DNA from: a virus
Reading direction: 5' to 3' (one strand)
Virus record (IMG/VR): IMGVR_UViG_3300005590_000001
Coordinates: 1-64,000 of that record
DNA: 64,000 nucleotides
The notes below the pieces were generated by a model. That model ran no database searches. It was given only the letters and a program-made list of their open reading frames with translations, and was not told the origin of the DNA. Positions 32,515 through 60,619 of this stretch are shown piece by piece (position 1 is the first letter of the stretch; the number at the start of each line of letters is the position of its first letter). Position numbers and translations under genes: made by a program.

Positions 32515-33402
32515 TTAAAATTCCACATAAGGATTAGCAACGGAAATTATATTCGGCATTTTTAGATCATGCCAACAACGAATCATTTGCGGCCGATCAT
32601 CAACCACTGCACACACATTGTACTTAGGACTTACAGAAGAAAAGAGCAATTCGGTTTTTATAATCGAGTCTCGGCGATTATCTCCGGCAGCTCTCATGAA
32701 TAGATCGCTATACTCAATGTAATTATCTTTTAACCACCGTTCTGTCTCTGATCTTGCGGCCGAATCTCTACCGCTGAGTAATACCACCTGATAATTTCTA
32801 GTTATGGCTAATGATGCAACCATATCAATAATAGTATCTCGTGGCTTATCATTGTAAACCTTATCCCACTCAAACGGCTTTCTATTATGCATCTCCGCAA
32901 TAGTGCCGTCAATATCACAGATAATACATGATGGCAAATCTTTGTTAGGTTTGTAAAATTTATATCGGCCATCTTCAGACAGATATTTAAGCCACTGTCC
33001 CCATTGCCTATACAAAACTTGAGGACCAACGCCATTTGTCCGCGCCGTATCCCTTTTCTGTGCTTCCTCTAATTTAATGGGAAATTCTTTAATGGATACT
33101 TCGTATCCAAGAGATTGTAGTTTTGAAATCAACGATTTGCGGGAACCACTATGTAAATTAGTATCTGATATGACAATATCTTTTTGTATAACAGAACAAT
33201 GCTCAACTATCTTAAGATTAACGGCTGTAACAAAATTTTCCACAGAAGATTTAAATTTGTAAGTTGACCAATCTTTATGGCCAAACAAAGTAAATCTCAT
33301 ATTATCACGATTAATATTTATCGCACCTGTCTTACGACAATGCTCATCAGCCCATGTGCTTTTTCCAGAAGCACTAATTCCTACTGTCAGTATTGCTTTC
33401 AT
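32515..33402 (-). CDS. pseT: Polynucleotide 5'-kinase/3'-phosphatase
   Basis: The 295 residues join a P-loop kinase (VGISASGKSTWADEH, residues about 7-21, with NINRDNMR) to a HAD phosphatase (ICDIDGTIAEMHNRKPF, about 161-177, then VLLSGRDSAARSETERWL). This is the domain order and length of T4 Pnkp. It heals broken RNA or DNA ends by phosphorylating 5'-OH and removing 3'-phosphates, feeding an RNA ligase. The fractured ligase at 46114-48651 is a natural partner. Confidence 0.92.
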   Translation of the reverse strand: MKAILTVGISASGKSTWADEHCRKTGAININRDNMRFTLFGHKDWSTYKFKSSVENFVTAVNLKIVEHCSVIQKDIVISDTNLHSGSRKSLISKLQSLGYEVSIKEFPIKLEEAQKRDTARTNGVGPQVLYRQWGQWLKYLSEDGRYKFYKPNKDLPSCIICDIDGTIAEMHNRKPFEWDKVYNDKPRDTIIDMVASLAITRNYQVVLLSGRDSAARSETERWLKDNYIEYSDLFMRAAGDNRRDSIIKTELLFSSVSPKYNVCAVVDDRPQMIRCWHDLKMPNIISVANPYVEF

Positions 33403-39103: not shown

Positions 39104-39426
39104 TTTTTACACCTTTCTTTGGAAAGATTAGTAATCTCTTCTTCAAATTGACCAGATTCTTTTTCTGCAAGTTCTCTTTCTGCGGAAGTCATCTGTGTAA
39201 ATTTAACCATTTCTCTACAAGAATTCATTACATCTGTCATATCAAATAATTCGCCAGTCATAATTGCTATTTTATAGCAATCAAATGTTGGAGAAACAGC
39301 ACCAACACCGTCAATCTTTAATAGCATTCTAGCGTCATCTTCTCTAAATTTACGATTAGATATAATATAAAATGAATTAGGGGCTCTCATCCTCCGTACT
39401 TTTACTTGAAGTTTTAACATAATCAC
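39100..39426 (-). CDS. Hypothetical protein
   Basis: The 108 residues start with a basic stretch (MLKLQVKVRRMRAPNSFY) and hold DGVGAVSPTFDCYKIAIMTG. The C-terminus is acidic and helical. Overlaps the membrane protein upstream. Not recognised. Confidence 0.6.
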   Translation of the reverse strand: MIMLKLQVKVRRMRAPNSFYIISNRKFREDDARMLLKIDGVGAVSPTFDCYKIAIMTGELFDMTDVMNSCREMVKFTQMTSAERELAEKESGQFEEEITNLSKERCKK

Positions 39427-39598
39427 CTAACCTTTCACCCAACCAAAATAGAAATATAAACAGGGCGCAATATGATGCCGTGATAGATCCAGAGTTTATA
39501 CCGGCCGGTTCACCAAGTCGTATTGTTATATCACACCCTACAGGAATTAAACACATTGTAAAAAATAACAATGTTTGACATACGTTTTTTACCAACAT
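39377..39598 (-). CDS. Small membrane protein
   Basis: The 73 residues have two hydrophobic helices (VCQTLLFFTMCLIPVG and SYCALFIFLFWLGERLG) and a charged C-terminus. Overlaps the NAMPT-like gene by 10 bases. Function unknown. Confidence 0.6.
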   Translation of the reverse strand: MLVKNVCQTLLFFTMCLIPVGCDITIRLGEPAGINSGSITASYCALFIFLFWLGERLGDYVKTSSKSTEDESP

Positions 39599-41226
39599 CC
39601 TATCCTTTCTCTAATTTCGGCGAGAGTAGTTTCATTCTGAATCTCACCATTACGAAAGACAGTTTGTAATTCATTACCAAGAGCTTCTTCTTCTTGGGTT
39701 ACATCCTCCACCAAATAGTATTTACCGTTAGTATCTTTTCTGACACACAGTAAACCTTTGGCCGACTTTTTAAATCCAGAATGTCCATCGGCACGTTTAT
39801 TTTTATTAGTCTTAGGATCTTTAAAGATGGATATAACTTGATCATTGATCACACAAGATGTGGCCTTACATGCAATGCCGAATGTATCTCGCGTAACATA
39901 CTGATATGTAAAACTGCCGAAGCCAAACACTACATTAGTACTAGCGAACTTTTGTTCAACCAGTCTCGTAATAATATTCTTAGCCTTATCATAATTAATC
40001 GAATCGCCGTAGATAAGTCCAATCTTAGGATTCAATTCTTTGTAACCCTTAGAATTAACGGTACTGCCAAAAATTTCATCAAGCACAGCAACACTACCTA
40101 TTGCTTCTTCTCTTGTAATTTCGCCATTTGCCGTCAGAAATCTACCATCGTCGGTTTGGGCACATTCTATTTGCTCGGAATATGTCATCTCATTCATTTT
40201 ACCAAATTGATAATTTGAATTATGATGTACCCTCGTAATTCTGTAACCGGCAACAATATGTCTAGGATCTCCACTGTCTGGTCTGATTACTAGCTTACCA
40301 TCCCGAGCAAGAATTTCATCTTTGAGCGCAGGTAAAAGTTTAGTTAAAACTCTCCAGTAATCATAGGTATCGCTAACTACTGACAGGATGCCTTTAGGAA
40401 ACCTCTTGAAGAGTTCTTTAAACCATTTTAGTTCGGCATCGTAACGTTCTTCTTCAGAAGTCAAGTTGTTAAAACTTGCCATTCCAATCTGCATAATAGA
40501 ATGTTCAGTTGCCGGAACGCTACCACCGACGAGTTCTTTTTCAATATCGGCACTATAAAATTCTTCTAGGAATTCAATACCGGGAATCGTATCAGTACCA
40601 TAAAAACTTAGAAGATGTGCGGCACCACTAGCACCGGCAGCTTCCATACCAAACAAACCACGCATAGAAAAATCATGACCTTGCCAAGGTACAAAGTTTG
40701 GATCGCCAGTTGCTTCGGCAAATTCATTTAACATTTGTCGAATATGATTAGCAGTAGTAGCTGAAGTCATAGGACCCCAAACAACATTTTGTTCAATGGT
40801 TTCTAAGTATCCCGGCAACCACGGAAAATCTTTATGAGTACTAACCATAGTGGTGAATGGAACTTTAGTCGGACACTTAGATCCTTCTGGCAGTGCTTTA
40901 ATATGGATCGGTAGATAACCAAGTTTGTGTAATTGCCGCAAATTATCAATAGGGTAATCGATTTCTTCTACACCAAGACAATGCTTAAGGATTCTACTAA
41001 ATCTATTGACGGCGTCGTTTTCATCAAGATCGAAGAAGTATTTGTTCCAATAATCTATTAAGTAGTGTTTAATGAAATATTGTAGGCCGAAAACTACAAC
41101 CTCATCTACATTTTCAACTCGCGAATTACGTGCTGTTGTGTTATTGTATACTTTGGTAACTCCATCAGCTACCATTTTAGGATGGAGACACTTATAAAAG
41201 TCTGCCGCACTAAGAGCGCTTTTCAT
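39589..41226 (-). CDS. nadV: Nicotinamide phosphoribosyltransferase-like enzyme (NAMPT/NadV family)
   Basis: The 545 residues contain the family blocks VFGLQYFIKHYLIDYW, GHDFSMRG (about 183-190), SVPATEHS with the catalytic His, SVVSDTYDYW, LVIRPDSGDP and GLIYGDSINYD, then FGFGSFTYQYVTRDTFG. Canonical NAMPT joins nicotinamide to PRPP to make NMN. In phage NAD-reconstitution pathway NARP1, homologues instead use ADP-ribose pyrophosphate to make NAD directly. A PRPP-synthetase-like partner two genes upstream fits either route. Which donor is used cannot be told from sequence by eye. Confidence 0.95.
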   Translation of the reverse strand: MKSALSAADFYKCLHPKMVADGVTKVYNNTTARNSRVENVDEVVVFGLQYFIKHYLIDYWNKYFFDLDENDAVNRFSRILKHCLGVEEIDYPIDNLRQLHKLGYLPIHIKALPEGSKCPTKVPFTTMVSTHKDFPWLPGYLETIEQNVVWGPMTSATTANHIRQMLNEFAEATGDPNFVPWQGHDFSMRGLFGMEAAGASGAAHLLSFYGTDTIPGIEFLEEFYSADIEKELVGGSVPATEHSIMQIGMASFNNLTSEEERYDAELKWFKELFKRFPKGILSVVSDTYDYWRVLTKLLPALKDEILARDGKLVIRPDSGDPRHIVAGYRITRVHHNSNYQFGKMNEMTYSEQIECAQTDDGRFLTANGEITREEAIGSVAVLDEIFGSTVNSKGYKELNPKIGLIYGDSINYDKAKNIITRLVEQKFASTNVVFGFGSFTYQYVTRDTFGIACKATSCVINDQVISIFKDPKTNKNKRADGHSGFKKSAKGLLCVRKDTNGKYYLVEDVTQEEEALGNELQTVFRNGEIQNETTLAEIRERIGCW

Positions 41227-41485
41227 TCTTTGACCTCTCTTCTAAATCAAGTTGACCAAGAGTGTGACCTAAAGCTGTAACGGTCATAAAAATTGTAAAT
41301 AGTAAAAATAGATTTGTTAAAGATGCATAAATAACATATGACCAAAAAGTTAAATCAGAAAATGCTAATTTACATAATAGTGCAATGTTTGCAAAGACAC
41401 CAACCAAAGAAAGAATAAACGATAAAATGCCAACTAAAACCATTACTATGTTAAATGTATCACTATACTTTTTAATTTCTACCAT
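41210..41485 (-). CDS. Small membrane protein
   Basis: The 91 residues contain FNIVMVLVGILSFILSLVGV and LTNLFLLFTIFMTVTALG, three probable helices. Inserted between the NAMPT-like and kinase genes; overlaps both. Unknown. Confidence 0.65.
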   Translation of the reverse strand: MVEIKKYSDTFNIVMVLVGILSFILSLVGVFANIALLCKLAFSDLTFWSYVIYASLTNLFLLFTIFMTVTALGHTLGQLDLEERSKNEKRS

Positions 41486-42378
41486 GTTAAAAACTCACTT
41501 ATGTGGATTGCATTAACTCCAACTTGATTTAATGATGTCAAAACTTGATGATCATCATCTACTACGGTTACGTCTCGTTTGTCCAACTTCCTCGAACGAA
41601 TGATAGAAAGCGCTTCCACATATTTATAACGTTTATTACCAACGAAGAAACGATTTTCTTTAGGAATAAAAGGGGCGTGCTTATCAAGCCACTCCTCTTT
41701 TTCTCGTAAACTTTGGCTATTAGGCATGGCAGAAAGAATGTAAACGTTATCACGATTAAGAATGCGGTCCAAAACTGGTTGAACGGGTCTAGCATACTTA
41801 AAATATTCCCCATCTGTAAAATTAATGTTGCCGTTTTCATCTAACGGCATGTGTTGATATGCCGCAAGCGTACCATCCATATCAAAGAAGATATGTTTGT
41901 TGGTATAGTATGGAACGTCAACGACATCATCACAGTATTCAAGTAATCTGTGGTAGCAACGATTTTTAATAATTGCTTTCTTAATAATCGCCGATTCAGG
42001 TACTGTTCTTTCTCGCTGCTTATTTCGTTCTAAGCAAACTGCAAGTGGCGTGTCAATATTAACAAGTACAATTTGATACTCACCGATCTGATCAACTTCA
42101 CTCATCAATCTCGCATTATACTTATTATTGATACCACCACCGTCAAAGAATATTGTACTATATTTTAATGATTTAGCGGCGTTTATAAGCTGTTGTTCTG
42201 CTCTTTCTACACTTAATTGATGTAGAGCTTCGGGAAATGCTGGATTATATAAAGGGTTTTGTTTTTTGATTTCATCAGCGGATATAATAATTGGGTCGAA
42301 AAAATTATCTAACCTATTTTGTATCCAAGTTGTTTTACCGGCACCCGGCAAACCGAACATAAAGTAAACGGTTCTCAT
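41479..42378 (-). CDS. P-loop kinase / HAD phosphatase fusion (Pnkp-like)
   Basis: The 299 residues pair a kinase domain (FMFGLPGAGKTTWIQ, residues 7-21) with a HAD phosphatase (IFFDMDGTLAAYQH, about 163-176, then YILSAMPNSQSLREKEEWL). The order matches Pnkp, but the phosphatase part more resembles 5'-nucleotidase type HADs. Located between NAMPT-like and PRPP-synthetase-like genes, it may act in nucleotide or NAD salvage rather than nucleic-acid repair. Confidence 0.8.
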   Translation of the reverse strand: MRTVYFMFGLPGAGKTTWIQNRLDNFFDPIIISADEIKKQNPLYNPAFPEALHQLSVERAEQQLINAAKSLKYSTIFFDGGGINNKYNARLMSEVDQIGEYQIVLVNIDTPLAVCLERNKQRERTVPESAIIKKAIIKNRCYHRLLEYCDDVVDVPYYTNKHIFFDMDGTLAAYQHMPLDENGNINFTDGEYFKYARPVQPVLDRILNRDNVYILSAMPNSQSLREKEEWLDKHAPFIPKENRFFVGNKRYKYVEALSIIRSRKLDKRDVTVVDDDHQVLTSLNQVGVNAIHISEFLTW

Positions 42379-43151
42379 TTTGAGTACTCCAAACCTTTTC
42401 TACTATAAATATTTGTAATACCAGATTCGTATAGAGTATCTACACCCTTAGAAAGTATCAAGTGTGAGCAATATAAATCTACACATTTGGGTTTGGTATT
42501 CTTATGTATTGCTTCGGCCGCGAGCTTAAATGTCATACCGCCGTCGCAAATATCATCTACTATTAGACATCTTTGCCCTTGTAAGTCTTTAAATTTACTT
42601 CTTGCTAAGGGTTCAGACATGGTAATATAGCCAGTTTCAGGATCTCGTTGTTTAAGTAAAACAAAATCCTTGTTTGTTCGTAAAATATATCTTTTTGCGG
42701 CAGATTCGTCTGGATAAATTGTGTAATCATATTTATATTGTTTAATAATTCTACGAATAATATGATCGGGTGATTGAACAGTAATGAAACCCTCAAGTAC
42801 ATCATGCCAACAGTGTAAATCAAAGCATATAATTTTATTTACATAATTACGCATTAAACCTACAAAAGTAAATAATGCAAATGTATTATTGTTATTTATT
42901 GATTTGTCTTGTCTGGCATAAGGTAAGTATGGAGCATGTAATGTAATTACTAAATCTGGACAATATGATCTGAGCAAGTCGCAAAGCTGACAAATATGAA
43001 AGATTTCTGATTCATTTTCAAATTGCCAATCAATTTTTACATGTTTATCGGCAACAATTTGTAAACACATTTCTGCAGAAAGATGCCAAACTTGACTAGT
43101 TTTGTCGGGAAAAACGGTGGGTTGAATGACATGACTGTCAATACTAATCAT
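42375..43151 (-). CDS. prs: PRPP-synthetase-like enzyme
   Basis: About 258 residues from MISIDSHVIQPTVF. The motifs HAPYLPYARQDK (ATP site), FDLHCWHDVLEGF and LIVDDICDGGMTF (PRPP/ribose-phosphate loop) are all present. It transfers pyrophosphate from ATP to ribose-5-phosphate, or in the NARP1 pathway to ADP-ribose (then called Adps). At under 260 residues it is shorter than bacterial Prs (about 315). Adjacent to the NAMPT-like enzyme. The ATG at 43151 follows a purine-rich Shine-Dalgarno. Confidence 0.93.
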   Translation of the reverse strand: MISIDSHVIQPTVFPDKTSQVWHLSAEMCLQIVADKHVKIDWQFENESEIFHICQLCDLLRSYCPDLVITLHAPYLPYARQDKSINNNNTFALFTFVGLMRNYVNKIICFDLHCWHDVLEGFITVQSPDHIIRRIIKQYKYDYTIYPDESAAKRYILRTNKDFVLLKQRDPETGYITMSEPLARSKFKDLQGQRCLIVDDICDGGMTFKLAAEAIHKNTKPKCVDLYCSHLILSKGVDTLYESGITNIYSRKGLEYSK

Positions 43152-43365
43152 CTTTTTTATCCTGTTGAACAAGTATAGAACTTACAAAAAGCATACCAAC
43201 TAACAATGTTATATTAATCGCAATCAAAGCTGGGATAACAATATCTTTTTCCATACCCATATCTTGAATTAGATAGTGTTGACCAACAACGCTTCCAGCC
43301 ATAGCTAAAATTGATGATCCAAAACAAAACAATACGATTAAAGCTTTCATTATTTTATGCATCAT
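43144..43365 (-). CDS. Small membrane protein
   Basis: The 73 residues have two helices (ALIVLFCFGSSILAMAG and VIPALIAINITLLVGMLFV). Ends at the start of the PRPP-synthetase-like gene. Unknown. Confidence 0.6.
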   Translation of the reverse strand: MMHKIMKALIVLFCFGSSILAMAGSVVGQHYLIQDMGMEKDIVIPALIAINITLLVGMLFVSSILVQQDKKDD

Positions 43366-43609
43366 ATATCCTTTTAAGGCTAAAAATTATTAAACACAAT
43401 ATTAAAATACAATCTATTATCGGCCAAGCTAGTAAGTGTACTGAAGTAGCCATAAAACAAAACGGTCCATCATCCTCATTATTTCTATTACATTCAAGCC
43501 AATGCCACATTGGAACACATTTATATAACCGCCAGTAACCAAAAATGTAAATTAGATGTAATATAACACCGGTTAGATGTATAAAGGCGATATACTGATA
43601 ATAATTCAT
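43355..43609 (-). CDS. Small membrane protein
   Basis: The 84 residues contain YIAFIHLTGVILHLIYIFGY and LAWPIIDCILILCLIIFSL, two or three helices, with a Cys/Trp-rich soluble loop between. Unknown. Confidence 0.6.
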   Translation of the reverse strand: MNYYQYIAFIHLTGVILHLIYIFGYWRLYKCVPMWHWLECNRNNEDDGPFCFMATSVHLLAWPIIDCILILCLIIFSLKRIYDA

Positions 43610-45921: not shown

Positions 45922-46117
45922 TTTTATTAACCTTTAAAGATTTTGTAACAGAAAACAAACGGGCTGACCAAAAATCAGGTGACTGATTATACTCTTGACA
46001 ATATGAAGCAACTACTTTCTTTTCTATCTGCTCTTTAGTAAATTGCTCAGGTAAACCTCCATTAATAGTTATACATTCAACGGGTTTTTGTTTATAAGAC
46101 AAAACTACAATATTCAT
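45914..46117 (-). CDS. Hypothetical protein
   Basis: The 67 residues begin MNIVVLSYKQKPVECITING and contain SYCQEYNQSPDFWSARLFSV. It lies between the ligase C-half and the ATPase gene, overlapping both by a few bases. Unknown. Confidence 0.6.
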   Translation of the reverse strand: MNIVVLSYKQKPVECITINGGLPEQFTKEQIEKKVVASYCQEYNQSPDFWSARLFSVTKSLKVNKNE

Positions 46118-46950
46118 GATTCTTCTTCCATATCCATATAATTGTCATCATCTTTAACAATTTGTTCAAGAACTTTAAAGTCCCAGCTTTTATGTTTGAA
46201 AGTATGCCAGCCGGGTTTGTTAATACGAACACATACTCCCTCTTTTGGGTGACGTGAATCTATTGGGTCTTCACCTTCTGTGAGTTTATCAATATAATCG
46301 ATTGCCATATCACGAACAGTTCTTATATCATCACCTTCAGGATGTAATCGTGTAAGTTCTGGAACATGTTTGATATTATGATGATTACACCATGATACAA
46401 CTTCGTCCCATGTCCAATCTACAGTTTTACCGTCAGCTAATACCCAAACAATTCTATATACATAGACATCGAATTCACCATCAGCACAACCATAAGTGTA
46501 GGTTATAGTATCACCATACTTTTTACGTAATTGTTTATTATTGCTACGTTTAGTTGGTTGACGTGGCATAATTGGCTGATTTGGACCTTCGAATCCAACC
46601 ACTTCATAGTAGACGATCATATGGTCTTCTAGAAATGGAATTATTTTCGCCGCCGCTTTAGCTCTCATATCTGGGCAATGATATCCCTCTTTCCCTTTGT
46701 CATTTAAGACAACTCTACGAGTACCATTCAGTACTTTTACCTCATTCTCAGATATGGGAATACCCAAACGACGAAGAAATCTCTCAAACCAATTAAGTTC
46801 TCGATTTGCGAGTACTCGACCAGTTCTTTGAGAAGTGTTATGTATTAAAATGTTGTTTGCATAAAAATTATTTGTTGCTGACACCGTTAGATCGTATCGA
46901 TCATTTTTCTTTCTTAGTTTGGTAATCTTGGTGATTTTCTTGTATTTCAT
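46114..46950 (-). CDS. RNA ligase, C-terminal half preceded by a split-intein C-part
   Basis: The product starts with a 38-residue intein C-fragment (MKYKKITKITKLRKKNDRYD, ending NNILIHN) and continues TSQRTGRVLANREL, the segment right after the ligase active-site KVHG. Downstream MIVYYEVVGFEGPNQ and GVCVRINKPGWHTFKHKS match ligase motifs III-IV and V. Joined by trans-splicing to the product at 47797 it would give a complete ligase. The start at 46950 gives a normal-length intein C-part; 46983 is also open. Confidence 0.88.
   Translation of the reverse strand: MKYKKITKITKLRKKNDRYDLTVSATNNFYANNILIHNTSQRTGRVLANRELNWFERFLRRLGIPISENEVKVLNGTRRVVLNDKGKEGYHCPDMRAKAAAKIIPFLEDHMIVYYEVVGFEGPNQPIMPRQPTKRSNNKQLRKKYGDTITYTYGCADGEFDVYVYRIVWVLADGKTVDWTWDEVVSWCNHHNIKHVPELTRLHPEGDDIRTVRDMAIDYIDKLTEGEDPIDSRHPKEGVCVRINKPGWHTFKHKSWDFKVLEQIVKDDDNYMDMEEES
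46837..46950 (-). mobile_element. Split intein, C-terminal fragment
   Basis: Residues 1-38 of the C-half, ending ILIHN with Asn as last residue and Thr as +1. Contains the DRYDLTVSATNNFYANN block typical of intein F/G regions. Length (38 aa) matches known split-intein C parts. Confidence 0.87.
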
Positions 46951-46958
46951 TGGTTTTC

Positions 46959-46969
46959 TGTGTAATAAA
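46959..46969 (+). promoter_or_regulatory. TGYGTAATA dyad upstream of the Vsr-like endonuclease
   Basis: TGTGTAATAAA lies 30 bases before the start codon and is half of an inverted repeat GTGTAAT-AA-ATTACAC. It matches the elements at 43940, 51418 and 63405. Confidence 0.5.
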
Positions 46970-46999
46970 TTACACGACTCCATGTACTTGAGGTGTAAG

Positions 47000-47851
47000 A
47001 TGAATTGTGAAAAATGTAACTTTAAAGCTCAAAAAAGAGGTCAATTAGGTATCCATAAGAAGACGTGTAAAAAATGGAAAAAGTTTTGTAGGAAAATGAC
47101 ATTACAAAAATTTGATTTTTTATATAATCACTTAAAAATGTCTGCGATAGATATTCAAAAAGCATACAAACTCAACTCATACGCAATTGTGTACACATTA
47201 ATGAAGAAGGTTGGATTCAAATGTAGGACTTTGTCTGAATCTGCGAAAATTTGTAGAAAGAAAGTCAAACATCACAACTTTAGTAAAAATCACCCGTCTA
47301 GAAAGAGATGGGAGAAGAGGCTGTTAAAAGAAGAAGGTATCACTAATGTTTTCCAACGTGAATCAGTTAAAAGAAAATCTGTTCAAACTCTACTAAAAAA
47401 ATATGGTGTAGAATCACCATACAAAATTACAACTTCACGAGGGAAAAATATATATTCATCAATTCATAGAAAAGTTGTAACTATATGTCAAGAACTTGAC
47501 ATTGAGATTGCTATTGAGTTTAAGCTTCCTAAAAAATCTGGTCGATATTTTGCTTATGATATATTTATATCTAACACTAAAAAGATTATAGAAGTTTATG
47601 GAGATTATTGGCATGGAAATCCATTAATCTACAAACCGAATGATTTAATCCTTAAGGGGTCAAGCGGTGAAAAAATAGTGAAAGAAAAATGGGAATTTGA
47701 TGAACTTAAAAATCGACATGCTGTTTTAGCAGGTTATCAGGTGTTGATTATATGGGAATCAGATTTAGTTAAAGATATCAATAAATTGATATTAGACTAC
47801 TCATCTGATAAGCATAGATCTCCGATACTTAATTCATCAACTCTTCTATAA
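47000..47851 (+). CDS. Vsr-like (EDxHD-type) free-standing homing endonuclease
   Basis: About 283 residues from MNCEKCNFKAQKRGQLGIHK, with a zinc-finger-like N-terminus. The C-terminal domain reads KKIIEVYGDYWHGNPLIY, then KEKWEFDELKNRHAVLAGYQ and VLIIWESDLV, the Vsr/PD-(D/E)XK pattern of the endonucleases found in fractured genes with split inteins. The ATG at 47000 has a GAGGTG Shine-Dalgarno. It is antisense to the two ligase halves and overlaps the end of the N-half by 55 bases. Confidence 0.88.
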   Translation: MNCEKCNFKAQKRGQLGIHKKTCKKWKKFCRKMTLQKFDFLYNHLKMSAIDIQKAYKLNSYAIVYTLMKKVGFKCRTLSESAKICRKKVKHHNFSKNHPSRKRWEKRLLKEEGITNVFQRESVKRKSVQTLLKKYGVESPYKITTSRGKNIYSSIHRKVVTICQELDIEIAIEFKLPKKSGRYFAYDIFISNTKKIIEVYGDYWHGNPLIYKPNDLILKGSSGEKIVKEKWEFDELKNRHAVLAGYQVLIIWESDLVKDINKLILDYSSDKHRSPILNSSTLL

Positions 47852-48651
47852 ACTGAAAATTCTGGAAGCCAGACAGGATTATTTCCTGTAATGGTCAATT
47901 TAGAGCCATCATCGAACTCCAACTCGAACCATTCACCATCATTGGGAACATAATAAAATTCATCAATTGGGACATAGATATCCTGATGTGTGTTTAAATC
48001 ACGTGCTTTAATATGCACAGTAAGTTTAAGATCAACAATATCTCCGATTTTTTGTGTGCCCAATTCTAATGTTTGAACTTTGGTATTACGCTCTACACAA
48101 CCATGAACTTTATTTGTAATGATTAACTCATCACCAATATTTATCTTTTCAATATTATACCTAAGCTGTTCTGTATCACGATGCTCAGGAAAACATAGTT
48201 CTTTTTTCTTAGTTGGTTTTTGTGAAGAGTTTCGATGAGGGTTTCTGCGTGAAATATATTTGCAACAGATTGGTATTCCTGCAAACTCATCTATTTGATC
48301 GCCCTCTTTTAATGCAGACGTATCTCCGAAGTGATTTAGATAAGAAAGAGGACACCAGAATCCATGAGATCGGACGCCTCGAAATTTTTGTACGCGGACG
48401 CGGCGATTTGGATCGAACATACCGCCTTCATTTGCACCAGTTTCTGGATTCTTACGGCGGATCAAATCGTTCTTCGCCGCAAACTCTGCGGACAACTGCA
48501 ACTCACACGGGAAGTATAAACCCAATGCTTGGTCCGGAGTATCTTTGCCGACAATAATAGTTTCACCCATTACTGTGCCAACGGCTAAACTATGTACTTC
48601 TGGATCTGGGTGTGGAGTAACTGTAACTTTACACACTATTGCTTTGTGCAT
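47797..48651 (-). CDS. RNA ligase, N-terminal half followed by a split-intein N-part
   Basis: The first 184 residues form an N-terminal ligase region ending DELIITNKVHG. Lys181-x-x-Gly184 is the adenylated lysine motif I (KxxG). From Cys185 (CVERNTKVQTLELGTQKIGD) a 100-residue intein N-fragment follows, with the block LEFDDGSKLTITGNNPVW. The long domain before KxxG resembles ligases with an N-terminal OB-like module. It would seal RNA nicks or breaks after healing by the kinase-phosphatase at 32515. Confidence 0.88.
   Translation of the reverse strand: MHKAIVCKVTVTPHPDPEVHSLAVGTVMGETIIVGKDTPDQALGLYFPCELQLSAEFAAKNDLIRRKNPETGANEGGMFDPNRRVRVQKFRGVRSHGFWCPLSYLNHFGDTSALKEGDQIDEFAGIPICCKYISRRNPHRNSSQKPTKKKELCFPEHRDTEQLRYNIEKINIGDELIITNKVHGCVERNTKVQTLELGTQKIGDIVDLKLTVHIKARDLNTHQDIYVPIDEFYYVPNDGEWFELEFDDGSKLTITGNNPVWLPEFSVYRRVDELSIGDLCLSDE
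47800..48099 (-). mobile_element. Split intein, N-terminal fragment
   Basis: Residues 185-284 of the N-half, starting with Cys185 after KVHG and ending at the stop codon. About 100 residues with the A and B splicing blocks. It has no endonuclease; that function is encoded by the separate gene between the halves. Confidence 0.87.
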
Positions 48652-48941: not shown

Positions 48942-49937
48942 TCACTTCCCATACTTTCTAAAGATAGAAGAAATTTCATCAACAATAATAGAATCTAAAT
49001 CTTTATGCGCCCGCTCTATGTTGCCGTAATGAGATTCTAAACAATTCATTAGTAATGCCCGAATAAAATTTTCATTCGGTCGATCTGGTAATTTAGAAGT
49101 TTCTTTTAATCTTTCAAGTCTATGTTCAGCCTCTTGAAACCATCGAATTATTTCTTTTTCCGGCACCTCAGCATTACGGATAGCTTTCATCTTTGCTACT
49201 CGACCAGATTCTTGAAGATCTAAATCGCCGTGAGTAAGCATATATTCAGCTTGAGATACTAGACGATATACATGATATGCAAACTTAAGATCAAATCCAT
49301 GAATCTTTTGTGATTCAAATCTCTTACTTTTATTTACACCATCGACGTAAATCTCTAAGTATTTAGAATTACCAAGAGTTTGAGCTTCTGCAAATGTAGT
49401 ACTGTGTGGTATTCCAGCACTTTCTTCAAAGCTCCATATTAAAGCACAGCTTTTCTTTGCTTTCTTTAAATCAGTAAGTTGACCGTAAGCATATCCCTTA
49501 AACGTATTGAATAAACCTTTATGTAAAAAGCCGCGTCTATTTTCTCTAATGATTTCAAATGCTTGAGTGATATGTTTGATACATTCACGAGGAACAAATA
49601 GAGAGTCAATAATATTTGGATTATTTTTTCTTAGAAGCTGAAAATATTTAGCTATATTAAAGATTTGAAAGTCATAATGTTTCTTAGAAGATTTATCTTG
49701 CACATCATGTTGAAGCCAGTTATTAAAAACCTTAGTGTCAATATCAAAACCGTGTATTACATTTGGTTTGAAAAGATATTCTTTCGGCGGAATTGCAACG
49801 CCGTACATATCAAGGTCAGACCATTCCGTAGCAACACCATACGCTTGACTACCCATCACAGTTAGATAATGAGTATTACTTGGTAACCAAGTAGGTGGTT
49901 CAATTAGTTTCTTTTCTACTAAGTCTTGAAGTAACAT
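48942..49937 (-). CDS. RlaP-like nucleotidyltransferase
   Basis: The 331 residues carry LTVMGSQAYGVATEWSDLDMYGV (about 26-48), the GS...D-x-D active site of polymerase-beta-type nucleotidyltransferases, in the form seen in the RlaP family associated with RNA repair. IHGFDIDTKVFNN and FQIFNIAKYFQLLRKNNPNI continue the family pattern. Close to the fractured RNA ligase, it may add nucleotides to damaged RNA ends. Confidence 0.82.
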   Translation of the reverse strand: MLLQDLVEKKLIEPPTWLPSNTHYLTVMGSQAYGVATEWSDLDMYGVAIPPKEYLFKPNVIHGFDIDTKVFNNWLQHDVQDKSSKKHYDFQIFNIAKYFQLLRKNNPNIIDSLFVPRECIKHITQAFEIIRENRRGFLHKGLFNTFKGYAYGQLTDLKKAKKSCALIWSFEESAGIPHSTTFAEAQTLGNSKYLEIYVDGVNKSKRFESQKIHGFDLKFAYHVYRLVSQAEYMLTHGDLDLQESGRVAKMKAIRNAEVPEKEIIRWFQEAEHRLERLKETSKLPDRPNENFIRALLMNCLESHYGNIERAHKDLDSIIVDEISSIFRKYGK

Positions 49938-58310: not shown

Positions 58311-58604
58311 TCTCTCAAGAATTTCTTTTACTTTTTGTTTACGTTCTTTATGTTCTTTTTCTTTCTTATCATAAAGCTCATATATTGGTGTAATGTCATC
58401 AAAAACTTGTTCACACTTCAAACAGACCCTAATGGAATAAAATTTACTTGAAGTAAAAAAATCTGGTCTTAGTGATTTTTGACCCCTTTTTTCAAAACAA
58501 TCACACTCTATTTCGTAGAGAGACATAGTTTTGATAAGATAAAAATCATGTTGACACTCATCTGATTTGAAGAAACTTTTTATCCATGTAAAAAACTTAT
58601 TCAT
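58284..58604 (-). CDS. Cys-containing hypothetical protein
   Basis: The 106 residues carry SDECQHDFYLI, IECDCFEKRG and IRVCLKCEQVFDD, a likely zinc-binding set, and a basic helical C-terminus. The last codons fall in the GC-rich island. Overlaps the CCA/NADAR gene by 4 bases. Unknown. Confidence 0.65.
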   Translation of the reverse strand: MNKFFTWIKSFFKSDECQHDFYLIKTMSLYEIECDCFEKRGQKSLRPDFFTSSKFYSIRVCLKCEQVFDDITPIYELYDKKEKEHKERKQKVKEILERSQGSVEAR

Positions 58605-60619
58605 GATATCTCCTGAATTTCTTTTTCAAACAGAATTCTATCTCTAACCTTCATCAGACAAAGCCCAAGCAAATTTTTACCCAACCACTTATCTGGGTCA
58701 CCTATCCTAGGATCATCGGCAGATAAACCAACACCCCAAATCTTATCATAAGGACTAGCTTCAATCAATACTGTATCATTAGTTGCTAGCAATCTTTCTT
58801 TAAGATCCTCATTCTGATTAAATTTCAACATATTAATGGAATTAACTATTTTTTTGTTAGATACACTCCACATATATTCATTGAAATTTTTTACCTGTCT
58901 TCCTAATTTTTTAACTTCATTTGGATCGTGTGTCTTTAAAATTCTTTCTTTAATTTGATGATCATCAAACAAATTTGCTTTCATAAACATCATAGCTTGT
59001 TCAGCAGATGTAAATTTACATTCCTCTCCACCAAGCATCATTTTAAAATTACATCTAAACCATTGACTTAAAAATCCATATTCTTCATTTACTCTGAAAA
59101 ATGTAATAAATTTTTTACCATTCCTCAAAGCAGATTTCATTCTTTTTTCTGTTTTCTTAAAGGTGTTATTTTTATTATACTTATCTCTTATATTTCCAAT
59201 TTCTACCTTAAGTATTTTTTCTTCCGGAGTCATTGTAAGAGATTTATAAAGACCCATACCATCTTTTATCAATATATCCTTATTGATATCATATTTGCTC
59301 AATTGAACACGATATACATGATCTAAAGCTTTACCCATTTCTGGTCCCGGCTTAGCACCAGCTTTAATCAAATCATAACCACTGACTTTTCGAGGCTCTT
59401 TGTCAAACAACACATTAAATTTAGACGCAGTCTCTTCTAAATTATGAATGAAGGCAACATGCTGATCATCTGGCAATTTATCACCGCGACCAAACATATC
59501 AGAGCGTACAAGCATCAACAATTCTGAAATATTTGTGCCAAACTCACTAAGTTTGAACGCTAATTTCTTAATATTTTTTGATGATAGTTTCATATTACTA
59601 TCAAGCATATGATACTTAGTTAAACCCTTAACTGGTCTAACATACATATTTGGAACACCAATCTGTTCAAAGAAATCATCAATAATATCATCGGCGATTC
59701 TTTCGTGATTGTGTGAAGCAATATGGCCTTTATGCAATTTGGTAGTTTTATACTTACCAATATCATGACACAATGCTGCAAAAAACATTTGAATACTATA
59801 ATCTGTATTAAAAATATTTCTTTGTGCAAGAATCGCATACATCATATCAACAACATGACATGTATGTGTGAAGACATCACCTTCTGGGTGATATTCTGAA
59901 TCTTGCGGCGTAAAAATCATTTGCTGAAGAGCAGGCGTATACGATAGCCAACCAGTATTATTCAAAAATTGCAATGCTCGACTCGGTTGAATAGAAGTTG
60001 CAATCTTTTTCCACTCTCCCCAGATTCTCTCTTTTGAGATTGTATAATAATCTCTATGCAGAATTTTAGAATATGTTATCAAATCTGCAGATGGTTCAAA
60101 TTGAAATCGTGCAAGAAATTGTGCCGCACGAAGAACACGCAATGGGTCTTCACAAAATTTTGCCGAAGTTGGATGCAAGATACCATCTTTAAGATTTTTT
60201 TGACCGCCGTAATGATCAATAATAGTGCCATCAAAACTCATCAACATAGAATTTATAGTAAAATCTCTACGAAGACAGGCTTCTTTTGTACTAGTATCTT
60301 TATCGGCGATTATTTTAAAATCTTTATGCGATGGTCCAGTGCTCTTTTCTCTTCTCGGCAAACTAAAATCAAATTCGCCGTCATCATTCGTCAACTTATG
60401 TACAAAAAAAGATTCGCCGTGAGAACTTACTTTACCATATTTTGACAAGGTCTCAACCAAATCTGCCGAATGAACATCATAGACCTCAACGTCCCAATCC
60501 TTTGGTTCATAACCAAGCAAAATATCTCTTACACAACCACCAGCCATAAACAATCTCGCCGAATAACCAGATTGTTTTAGCTCATTCTCAATTTTGAGAA
60601 GGGTCAAAGGAATATCCAT
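58601..60619 (-). CDS. cca: CCA-adding tRNA nucleotidyltransferase fused to HD and NADAR domains
   Basis: The 672 residues contain a class II nucleotidyltransferase head (FMAGGCVRDILLGYEPKDWDVEV, 24-46, with the DxD site), an RNA-binding neck, an HD phosphohydrolase domain (THTCHVVDMMYAI; FFAALCHDIGKYKTT, 251-293), and a C-terminal NADAR/YbiA-like domain (503-662: FFRVNEEYGFLSQWF, FTSAEQAMMFMKANLF, DKIWGVGLS). The front half repairs tRNA 3' CCA ends. NADAR domains cleave ADP-ribose linkages to guanine or related N-glycosidic bonds. The fusion suggests repair of ADP-ribosylated or damaged RNA. Confidence 0.9.
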   Translation of the reverse strand: MDIPLTLLKIENELKQSGYSARLFMAGGCVRDILLGYEPKDWDVEVYDVHSADLVETLSKYGKVSSHGESFFVHKLTNDDGEFDFSLPRREKSTGPSHKDFKIIADKDTSTKEACLRRDFTINSMLMSFDGTIIDHYGGQKNLKDGILHPTSAKFCEDPLRVLRAAQFLARFQFEPSADLITYSKILHRDYYTISKERIWGEWKKIATSIQPSRALQFLNNTGWLSYTPALQQMIFTPQDSEYHPEGDVFTHTCHVVDMMYAILAQRNIFNTDYSIQMFFAALCHDIGKYKTTKLHKGHIASHNHERIADDIIDDFFEQIGVPNMYVRPVKGLTKYHMLDSNMKLSSKNIKKLAFKLSEFGTNISELLMLVRSDMFGRGDKLPDDQHVAFIHNLEETASKFNVLFDKEPRKVSGYDLIKAGAKPGPEMGKALDHVYRVQLSKYDINKDILIKDGMGLYKSLTMTPEEKILKVEIGNIRDKYNKNNTFKKTEKRMKSALRNGKKFITFFRVNEEYGFLSQWFRCNFKMMLGGEECKFTSAEQAMMFMKANLFDDHQIKERILKTHDPNEVKKLGRQVKNFNEYMWSVSNKKIVNSINMLKFNQNEDLKERLLATNDTVLIEASPYDKIWGVGLSADDPRIGDPDKWLGKNLLGLCLMKVRDRILFEKEIQEIS

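Follow-up and report, generated by a model that had tools for sequence, protein, structure and literature searches.

The first 64 kb (64,000 nucleotides; hereafter the window) of a 171,987-base viral record, IMG/VR IMGVR_UViG_3300005590_000001, encodes a nicotinamide phosphoribosyltransferase (NAMPT)-like protein and a ribose-phosphate pyrophosphokinase (Prs)-like protein. Does this pair make nicotinamide mononucleotide (NMN) by way of phosphoribosyl pyrophosphate (PRPP), or does it rebuild NAD+ from ADP-ribose, as the enzymes Adps and Namat do in NAD+ reconstitution pathway 1 (NARP1)? The first-pass annotation of this DNA had favoured NARP1, and our analysis indicates that the locus is very probably a phage NARP1 operon, with every sequence test applied pointing that way. 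We confirmed both open reading frames (ORFs) on the minus strand and found them, as had been proposed, in one operon of overlapping genes, with a membrane gene and a kinase-HAD phosphatase fusion gene between them. The order of transcription is two small hydrophobic ORFs, the Prs-like gene (adps), the kinase-HAD gene, the membrane gene, the NAMPT-like gene (namat) and a further small hydrophobic ORF. Because consecutive genes overlap by 4–17 nt at ATGA-type junctions, they very likely form a single co-translated operon; the outermost upstream ORF is its probable first gene, and it probably extends past namat into the last ORF. The Prs-like ORF would span 42375–43172 if a TTG start were used, but the ATG at 43151, which the first-pass coordinates implied, is the natural one. 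The active sites of both enzymes are intact, and their family matches are far beyond chance.

What distinguishes Namat, whose donor is ADP-ribose pyrophosphate (ADPR-PP), from NAMPT, whose donor is PRPP, was described in a 2026 structure paper (PMC12774641): a selectivity-clamp helix, GSX-phi-X-phi-X-phi-TRD, with aromatic residues that stack on the adenine, and a second Namat-specific feature, a loop residue that is Arg40 in the Namat of Bacillus phage SPbetaL1. The clamp motif of the window protein reads GSFTYQYVTRD. Alignment placed SPbetaL1 R40, F392, Y396, T398, R399 and D400 at R36, F439, Y443, T445, R446 and D447 in the window, so that all Namat clamp residues are present, in support of the preference for NARP1 over canonical PRPP/NMN synthesis; R36, aligned with R40, provides the SCL stacking residue, a position that takes Arg, or else Lys/Tyr with a stacking residue after it. 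The NAMPT-type core (F189, R192, D215, R306 and D308 in SPbetaL1; F186, R189, D212, R315 and D317 in the window) is also conserved, as is every residue of the pocket for nicotinamide and ribose-phosphate. The protein scored 502 bits against NF006629 (cut-off, 405), and its closest solved structures, 9w5x and 9w5w, match SPbetaL1 Namat letter for letter where the alignments overlap. By contrast, canonical control NAMPTs (Xanthomonas phage LucasX, Vibrio phage VCPH, Citrobacter phage Miller, Cupriavidus and Rhizobium) carry a GGGLLQ-type sequence at the clamp site, and residue alignment of the LucasX and VCPH proteins revealed no clamp residues. The published motif can thus serve as a sequence test.

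The window protein fell inside the clamp-bearing clade of the NAMPT tree, next to a protein of the environmental podovirus ctKR88 (support, 100/98); forcing it to group with the canonical NAMPTs cost 50 log units and was rejected by the approximately unbiased (AU) test (p = 0.0018). For the Prs-like protein, which weakly matches archaeal ribose-phosphate diphosphokinases, we aligned phage homologs, seven canonical Prs proteins (six of them cellular, the seventh from a Microcystis phage) and SPbetaL1 Adps, whose activity had been proven in previous studies that PMC12774641 cites. It grouped with the SPbetaL1 and Listeria P100 Adps proteins (97/90), the seven canonical Prs proteins lay on the other side of a 100/100 branch, and grouping with them was rejected (AU p = 7e-5). 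Phylogeny, the check named in the first-pass annotation, thus clustered neither protein with canonical Prs or NAMPT.

The ribose-phosphate loop, DDMIDTGGTL in Escherichia coli Prs and DDLSSFGGTF in SPbetaL1 Adps, is DDICDGGMTF in the window, and almost all viral Adps proteins have a loop nearly identical to this one. The loop Thr of the Prs family holds the ribose 5-phosphate, and its loss would fit a larger, diphosphate-linked substrate. As the catalytic residues are retained (the ATP-flag ARQDK and the His, Lys/Arg and DD residues), the window Adps should be active. What points to the specialised role suggested for the short Prs-like enzyme is its clade together with the altered phosphate-binding loop; short length is a weak argument for it.

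Database names for the two proteins, ribose-phosphate pyrophosphokinase and nicotinate phosphoribosyltransferase, would instead suit canonical salvage (NARP2-like or ordinary NadV), in which ribose-5-phosphate is converted to PRPP, nicotinamide is converted to NMN, and NadD or NadM of the host completes NAD+. Several observations weigh against NARP1, some of them in favour of salvage. In vitro, Namat can also turn PRPP into NMN, with about half the activity of human NAMPT (PMC12774641), so NMN synthesis is possible. The window Adps is divergent, with ~24% overall identity to the proven SPbetaL1 enzyme. In loci L007–L009, an Adps-type enzyme with the loop DDICDGGMTF is partnered by a NAMPT that has no clamp, and a macro gene is also present; the Adps loop is therefore an imperfect predictor of the partner's donor. 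Haemophilus ducreyi NadV lies within the Namat clade, yet has E, Q and R at the R40, F392 and Y396 positions; clade position alone therefore does not fix the donor, and the clamp residues weigh more. Against salvage stand the full adenine clamp of the window Namat, the changed loop of the window Adps and the rejection of both canonical groupings. In addition, we found no NMN adenylyltransferase (nucleotidyltransferase PF01467) in the 172-kb record, the completeness of which is unestablished, while the control was positive in 14 out of 14 genomes; a NARP2-like route would thus be without a phage-encoded second step. The combination of this missing enzyme and the adenine clamp also sets the locus apart from NARP2 and NadV-NadM(NadR) systems. 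The NadV-NatV salvage (NARP2-type) loci of VCPH and LucasX share with the window the NAMPT fold and phage-encoded NAD+ synthesis, but their NAMPTs have no clamp, fall in another clade and have an NMN adenylyltransferase partner; these were two of the three clamp-less phage NAMPT cases fetched. We consider canonical salvage very unlikely here.

Among proven systems, the SPbetaL1 NARP1 locus (Adps WIT26982, Namat WIT26983; Namat structures in PMC12774641) resembles the window in having both enzymes in adps-then-namat order, a complete adenine clamp, the catalytic core and an Adps of the same clade. It differs in that its two genes are directly adjacent, whereas the kinase-HAD and membrane genes intervene in the window, and in that the window Namat, 44% identical, carries an insertion of ~50 aa (residues ~328–375) that follows the RPDSGDP motif; the Adps identity is given above. 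Mycobacteriophage DyoEdafos has RyDEP, an RyR-domain cyclic ADP-ribose glycosidase that works with NARP1, inserted in its NARP1 locus (PMC13232231). This is a precedent for an accessory enzyme gene within a NARP1 operon, although the inserted gene is RyDEP there and a kinase-HAD fusion in the window. The record gave no match to RyR (PF02026, RyDEP), but no control genome matched either, so that RyDEP is not excluded.

Viral loci as a rule pair Adps with Namat, and the window is a divergent example. With the Adps query, all 32 of 32 viral relatives had a NAMPT-like gene no more than ~1.4 kb downstream, in the same orientation. Among the best 80 viral loci for the Namat query, every one (80 out of 80) had the clamp motif or a closely similar sequence, and the DNA retrieved for 71 of them contained an Adps-like ORF. 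Some Namat genes have large insertions: L004/L005 (7058–9460) contain an in-frame insert of ~300 aa, possibly an intein, and the Lak-A gene (L228, 3004–5961) is interrupted, with an unrelated ORF between the pieces. A Curtobacterium plasmid (L050, 2020–5637) combines an Adps-type enzyme, TerD, a Namat-like protein and NADAR in one operon. The NadV of H. ducreyi plasmid pNAD1 (L049, 3668–5155) has lost three clamp residues and has no Adps partner; a reversion from ADPR-PP to PRPP use is possible.

By analogy with proven homologs, the substrates and anti-defence effect of the window pair would be as follows. NADase defences would cleave NAD+ and leave ADP-ribose; Adps would transfer pyrophosphate from ATP onto C1'' of ADP-ribose to give ADPR-PP; and Namat would combine this with nicotinamide to yield NAD+, in two steps that bypass NMN. 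Phage growth could then go on despite NAD+ depletion of the TIR, SIR2 or SEFIR type. The same chemistry might instead recycle ADP-ribose for the phage's own metabolism, with the NADAR domain, a macro-like protein and other ADP-ribose chemistry as sources. This phage does encode an RNA-repair set around NARP1, tRNA genes and, at another place in the record, a macro-like ORF. The repair set includes a canonical Pnkp and a CCA-adding enzyme with a fused NADAR domain, the latter a single protein that joins the repair of RNA ends to ADP-ribose chemistry. As NADAR and macro domains liberate or process ADP-ribose, they could feed NARP1. The accessible text of two surveys (PMC9503650, PMC7824862) describes phage NAD/ADP-ribose and RNA-repair networks as connected and NadV as a PRPP-using enzyme, and does not mention Adps. 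Some bacterial operons, too, join Adps–Namat with macro, NADAR, KptA and ADP-ribosylglycohydrolase genes. However, KptA was not found in the record (control positive), and proven phage NARP1, according to PMC12774641, counters NADase defences. Recycling for the phage's own use differs from defence evasion in purpose alone, which is beyond what sequence can settle; we regard it as unlikely.

The bacterial operons came from a genome scan with the window Namat, which returned 80 loci (L146–L225), nearly all from Bacteroidota, with the clamp motif in all 80 and an Adps-like ORF upstream of Namat in 62. Like bacterial NARP1 of Paenibacillus foliorum (PMC12774641), they share with the window an Adps-loop enzyme and a clamp-bearing Namat. 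Unlike the window, where none of these genes adjoins NARP1, the fuller operons add, between or beside the pair, an NrtR-type Nudix regulator, macro, DUF4291, ADP-ribosylglycohydrolase, KptA, NADAR, microbial PARG and phosphoesterase genes, and they are likely ADP-ribose recycling units. An exact motif search over Bacteroidota was positive in 20 out of 395 genomes, one being the chosen centre (at least ~5% of the species sampled). Within the literature searched, chromosomal Adps–Namat operons are thus more widespread than published. In a quick tree, the bacterial sequences were nested, as one or two clades, in a phage-rich tree. The chromosomal operons suggest that NARP1 chemistry also serves bacterial ADP-ribose recycling, which bears on the origin of the phage pathway. 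The chemistry of the module is already known; its linkage to kinase-HAD and the breadth of bacterial NARP1 are new.

The kinase-HAD fusion had been treated as a neutral spacer, but it seems to be part of the module, its homologs lying beside Namat elsewhere. The protein has the domain order of T4 Pnkp, with an N-terminal P-loop kinase and a C-terminal HAD domain bearing DxDGT and DD motifs. Its best PHROG is phrog_505 (polynucleotide kinase), and T4 Pnkp was the top solved Foldseek match of an AlphaFold2 model (predicted local distance difference test score 73, middling; alignment of three sequences), a match that supports the architecture and not the substrate. These features would fit a second polynucleotide kinase-phosphatase of the ordinary kind, one that belongs to the RNA-repair set and lies in the NARP1 operon by chance; RNA ligase and RlaP are encoded nearby, and a true Pnkp adjoins NARP1 in Mycobacterium phage Tourach. 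However, the phage already encodes a canonical Pnkp, from which kinase-HAD differs at both active sites. The phosphatase motif is SGRDS in the canonical protein and SAMPNS in kinase-HAD, and the kinase acceptor site is NRDNMR versus SADEIKK, with Lys in place of Arg. In T4 Pnkp, Arg38 and Arg213 are the arginines that contact RNA, and these replacements mean that both are absent from kinase-HAD. In Pfam searches kinase-HAD matched AAA_33 and, in its phosphatase half, NT5C (5'-nucleotidase) above the cut-off, unlike T4 Pnkp (phrog_505, PF25109), and HAD_PNKP was not reported. Judged by these residues, kinase-HAD is probably not a polynucleotide kinase; that it is an ordinary Pnkp remains a fair-sized but minority possibility, which the distribution of its homologs also disfavours.

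Homologs at 36% identity or more occurred in 16 of 50,697 phage records, namely 15 Lak megaphages and Leptolyngbya phage Lbo-JY46, and every close homolog inspected (37–41% identical in the Lak phages and Lbo-JY46) adjoins or neighbours Namat. The homolog lies 1 kb from Namat in Lak-B, adjoins the interrupted Namat in Lak-A, directly follows Namat in L229 and is 1.4 kb from Namat in Lbo-JY46, with Adps further along. The Namat clamp is perfect in Lbo-JY46 (GSFTYQYNTRD) and partly degenerate in Lak-B (GSFTYNVRSRD). A viral-contig scan with kinase-HAD as the lone query found no relatives; with an alignment of four kinase-HAD sequences it found three loci, two of them close to the Lak-phage sequences. 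Streptomyces-phage Pnkps, 24–26% identical to kinase-HAD, look like ordinary Pnkps. The linkage to Namat is shared by three unrelated lineages with genomes of 125–550 kb, and chance is an unlikely explanation; it is undescribed in the literature searched.

Kinase-HAD is therefore a candidate third component of NARP1. Going by its linkage and active-site changes, it would most likely feed or trim phosphorylated ADP-ribose or NAD derivatives for NARP1 and not RNA ends. NADases can cleave NADP+ as well, and to our knowledge NARP1 alone has no answer to this. A more specific proposal, which we hold to be somewhat unlikely, would make kinase-HAD the third enzyme of NARP1: a bifunctional kinase/phosphatase for small nucleotides, acting on phosphorylated derivatives (hypothetically ADP-ribose-2'-phosphate from NADP+ cleavage, or ADP-ribose-1''-phosphate) and letting the pathway rebuild the NADP pool too. 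If it does handle phosphorylated ADP-ribose, phages could restore NADP besides NAD. A NadR-type kinase identity was considered and rejected, with no nucleotidyltransferase partner and no evidence for it.

Table. Coordinates of the NARP1 locus and of other features of the record (window positions, except where marked as record positions).
Feature	Position	Strand	Evidence or remark
Small hydrophobic (membrane) ORF	43355..43609	-	ORF list
Small hydrophobic (membrane) ORF directly upstream of adps	43144..43365	-	ORF list; overlaps adps start
Adps candidate, 258 aa	42375..43151	-	phrog_619 E 4e-44; first gene of enzyme set
Kinase-HAD phosphatase fusion, 299 aa	41479..42378	-	AAA_33 and NT5C above cut-off
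91-aa small membrane protein with two hydrophobic helices (by inspection)	41210..41485	-	ORF overlapping both neighbours; no Pfam or PHROG match
Namat candidate, 545 aa	39589..41226	-	phrog_448 E 1e-179; clamp; clade
Small hydrophobic ORF overlapping namat end	39377..39598	-	ORF; no PHROG match
Canonical Pnkp	32515-33402		PF25109 HAD_PNKP E 7e-39; phrog_505 E 2e-89
RNA ligase (two pieces)	46114-46983 + 47797-48651	-	RNA-repair set around NARP1
RlaP	48942-49937		RNA-repair set
CCA-adding/poly(A) polymerase enzyme with C-terminal NADAR	58601-60619	-	PF08719 E 1e-49
HNH-type ORF, 221 aa	43982-44647	+	beside tRNA-Leu gene
Nuclease-like ORF	46919-47851	+	DUF7487
Ribonucleotide reductase large subunit	record 163443-166744		split intein
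DNA polymerase III-like ORF	record near 133285-135285		intein-like stretch

A megablast search with the DNA from 38 to 46 kb gave no match among phage records. PADLOC assigned the labels PsyrT and ShosT, which reflect weak phosphoribosyltransferase-motif matches only and are not meaningful. The HNH-type ORF, which lies a short way upstream of the operon on the other strand, is probably a free-standing homing endonuclease. The RNA ligase gene is split (46114–48651): its N-terminal half closes with an N-intein that directly follows the catalytic KVHG motif, its C-terminal half begins with a C-intein (PF14890), and the nuclease-like ORF lies between the halves on the opposite strand, making this a 'fractured gene' arrangement with a split intein. 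A second split intein is present in the large subunit of ribonucleotide reductase, the two halves of which flank a small ORF (YIG-like start), and an intein-like stretch occurs in the DNA polymerase III-like ORF.

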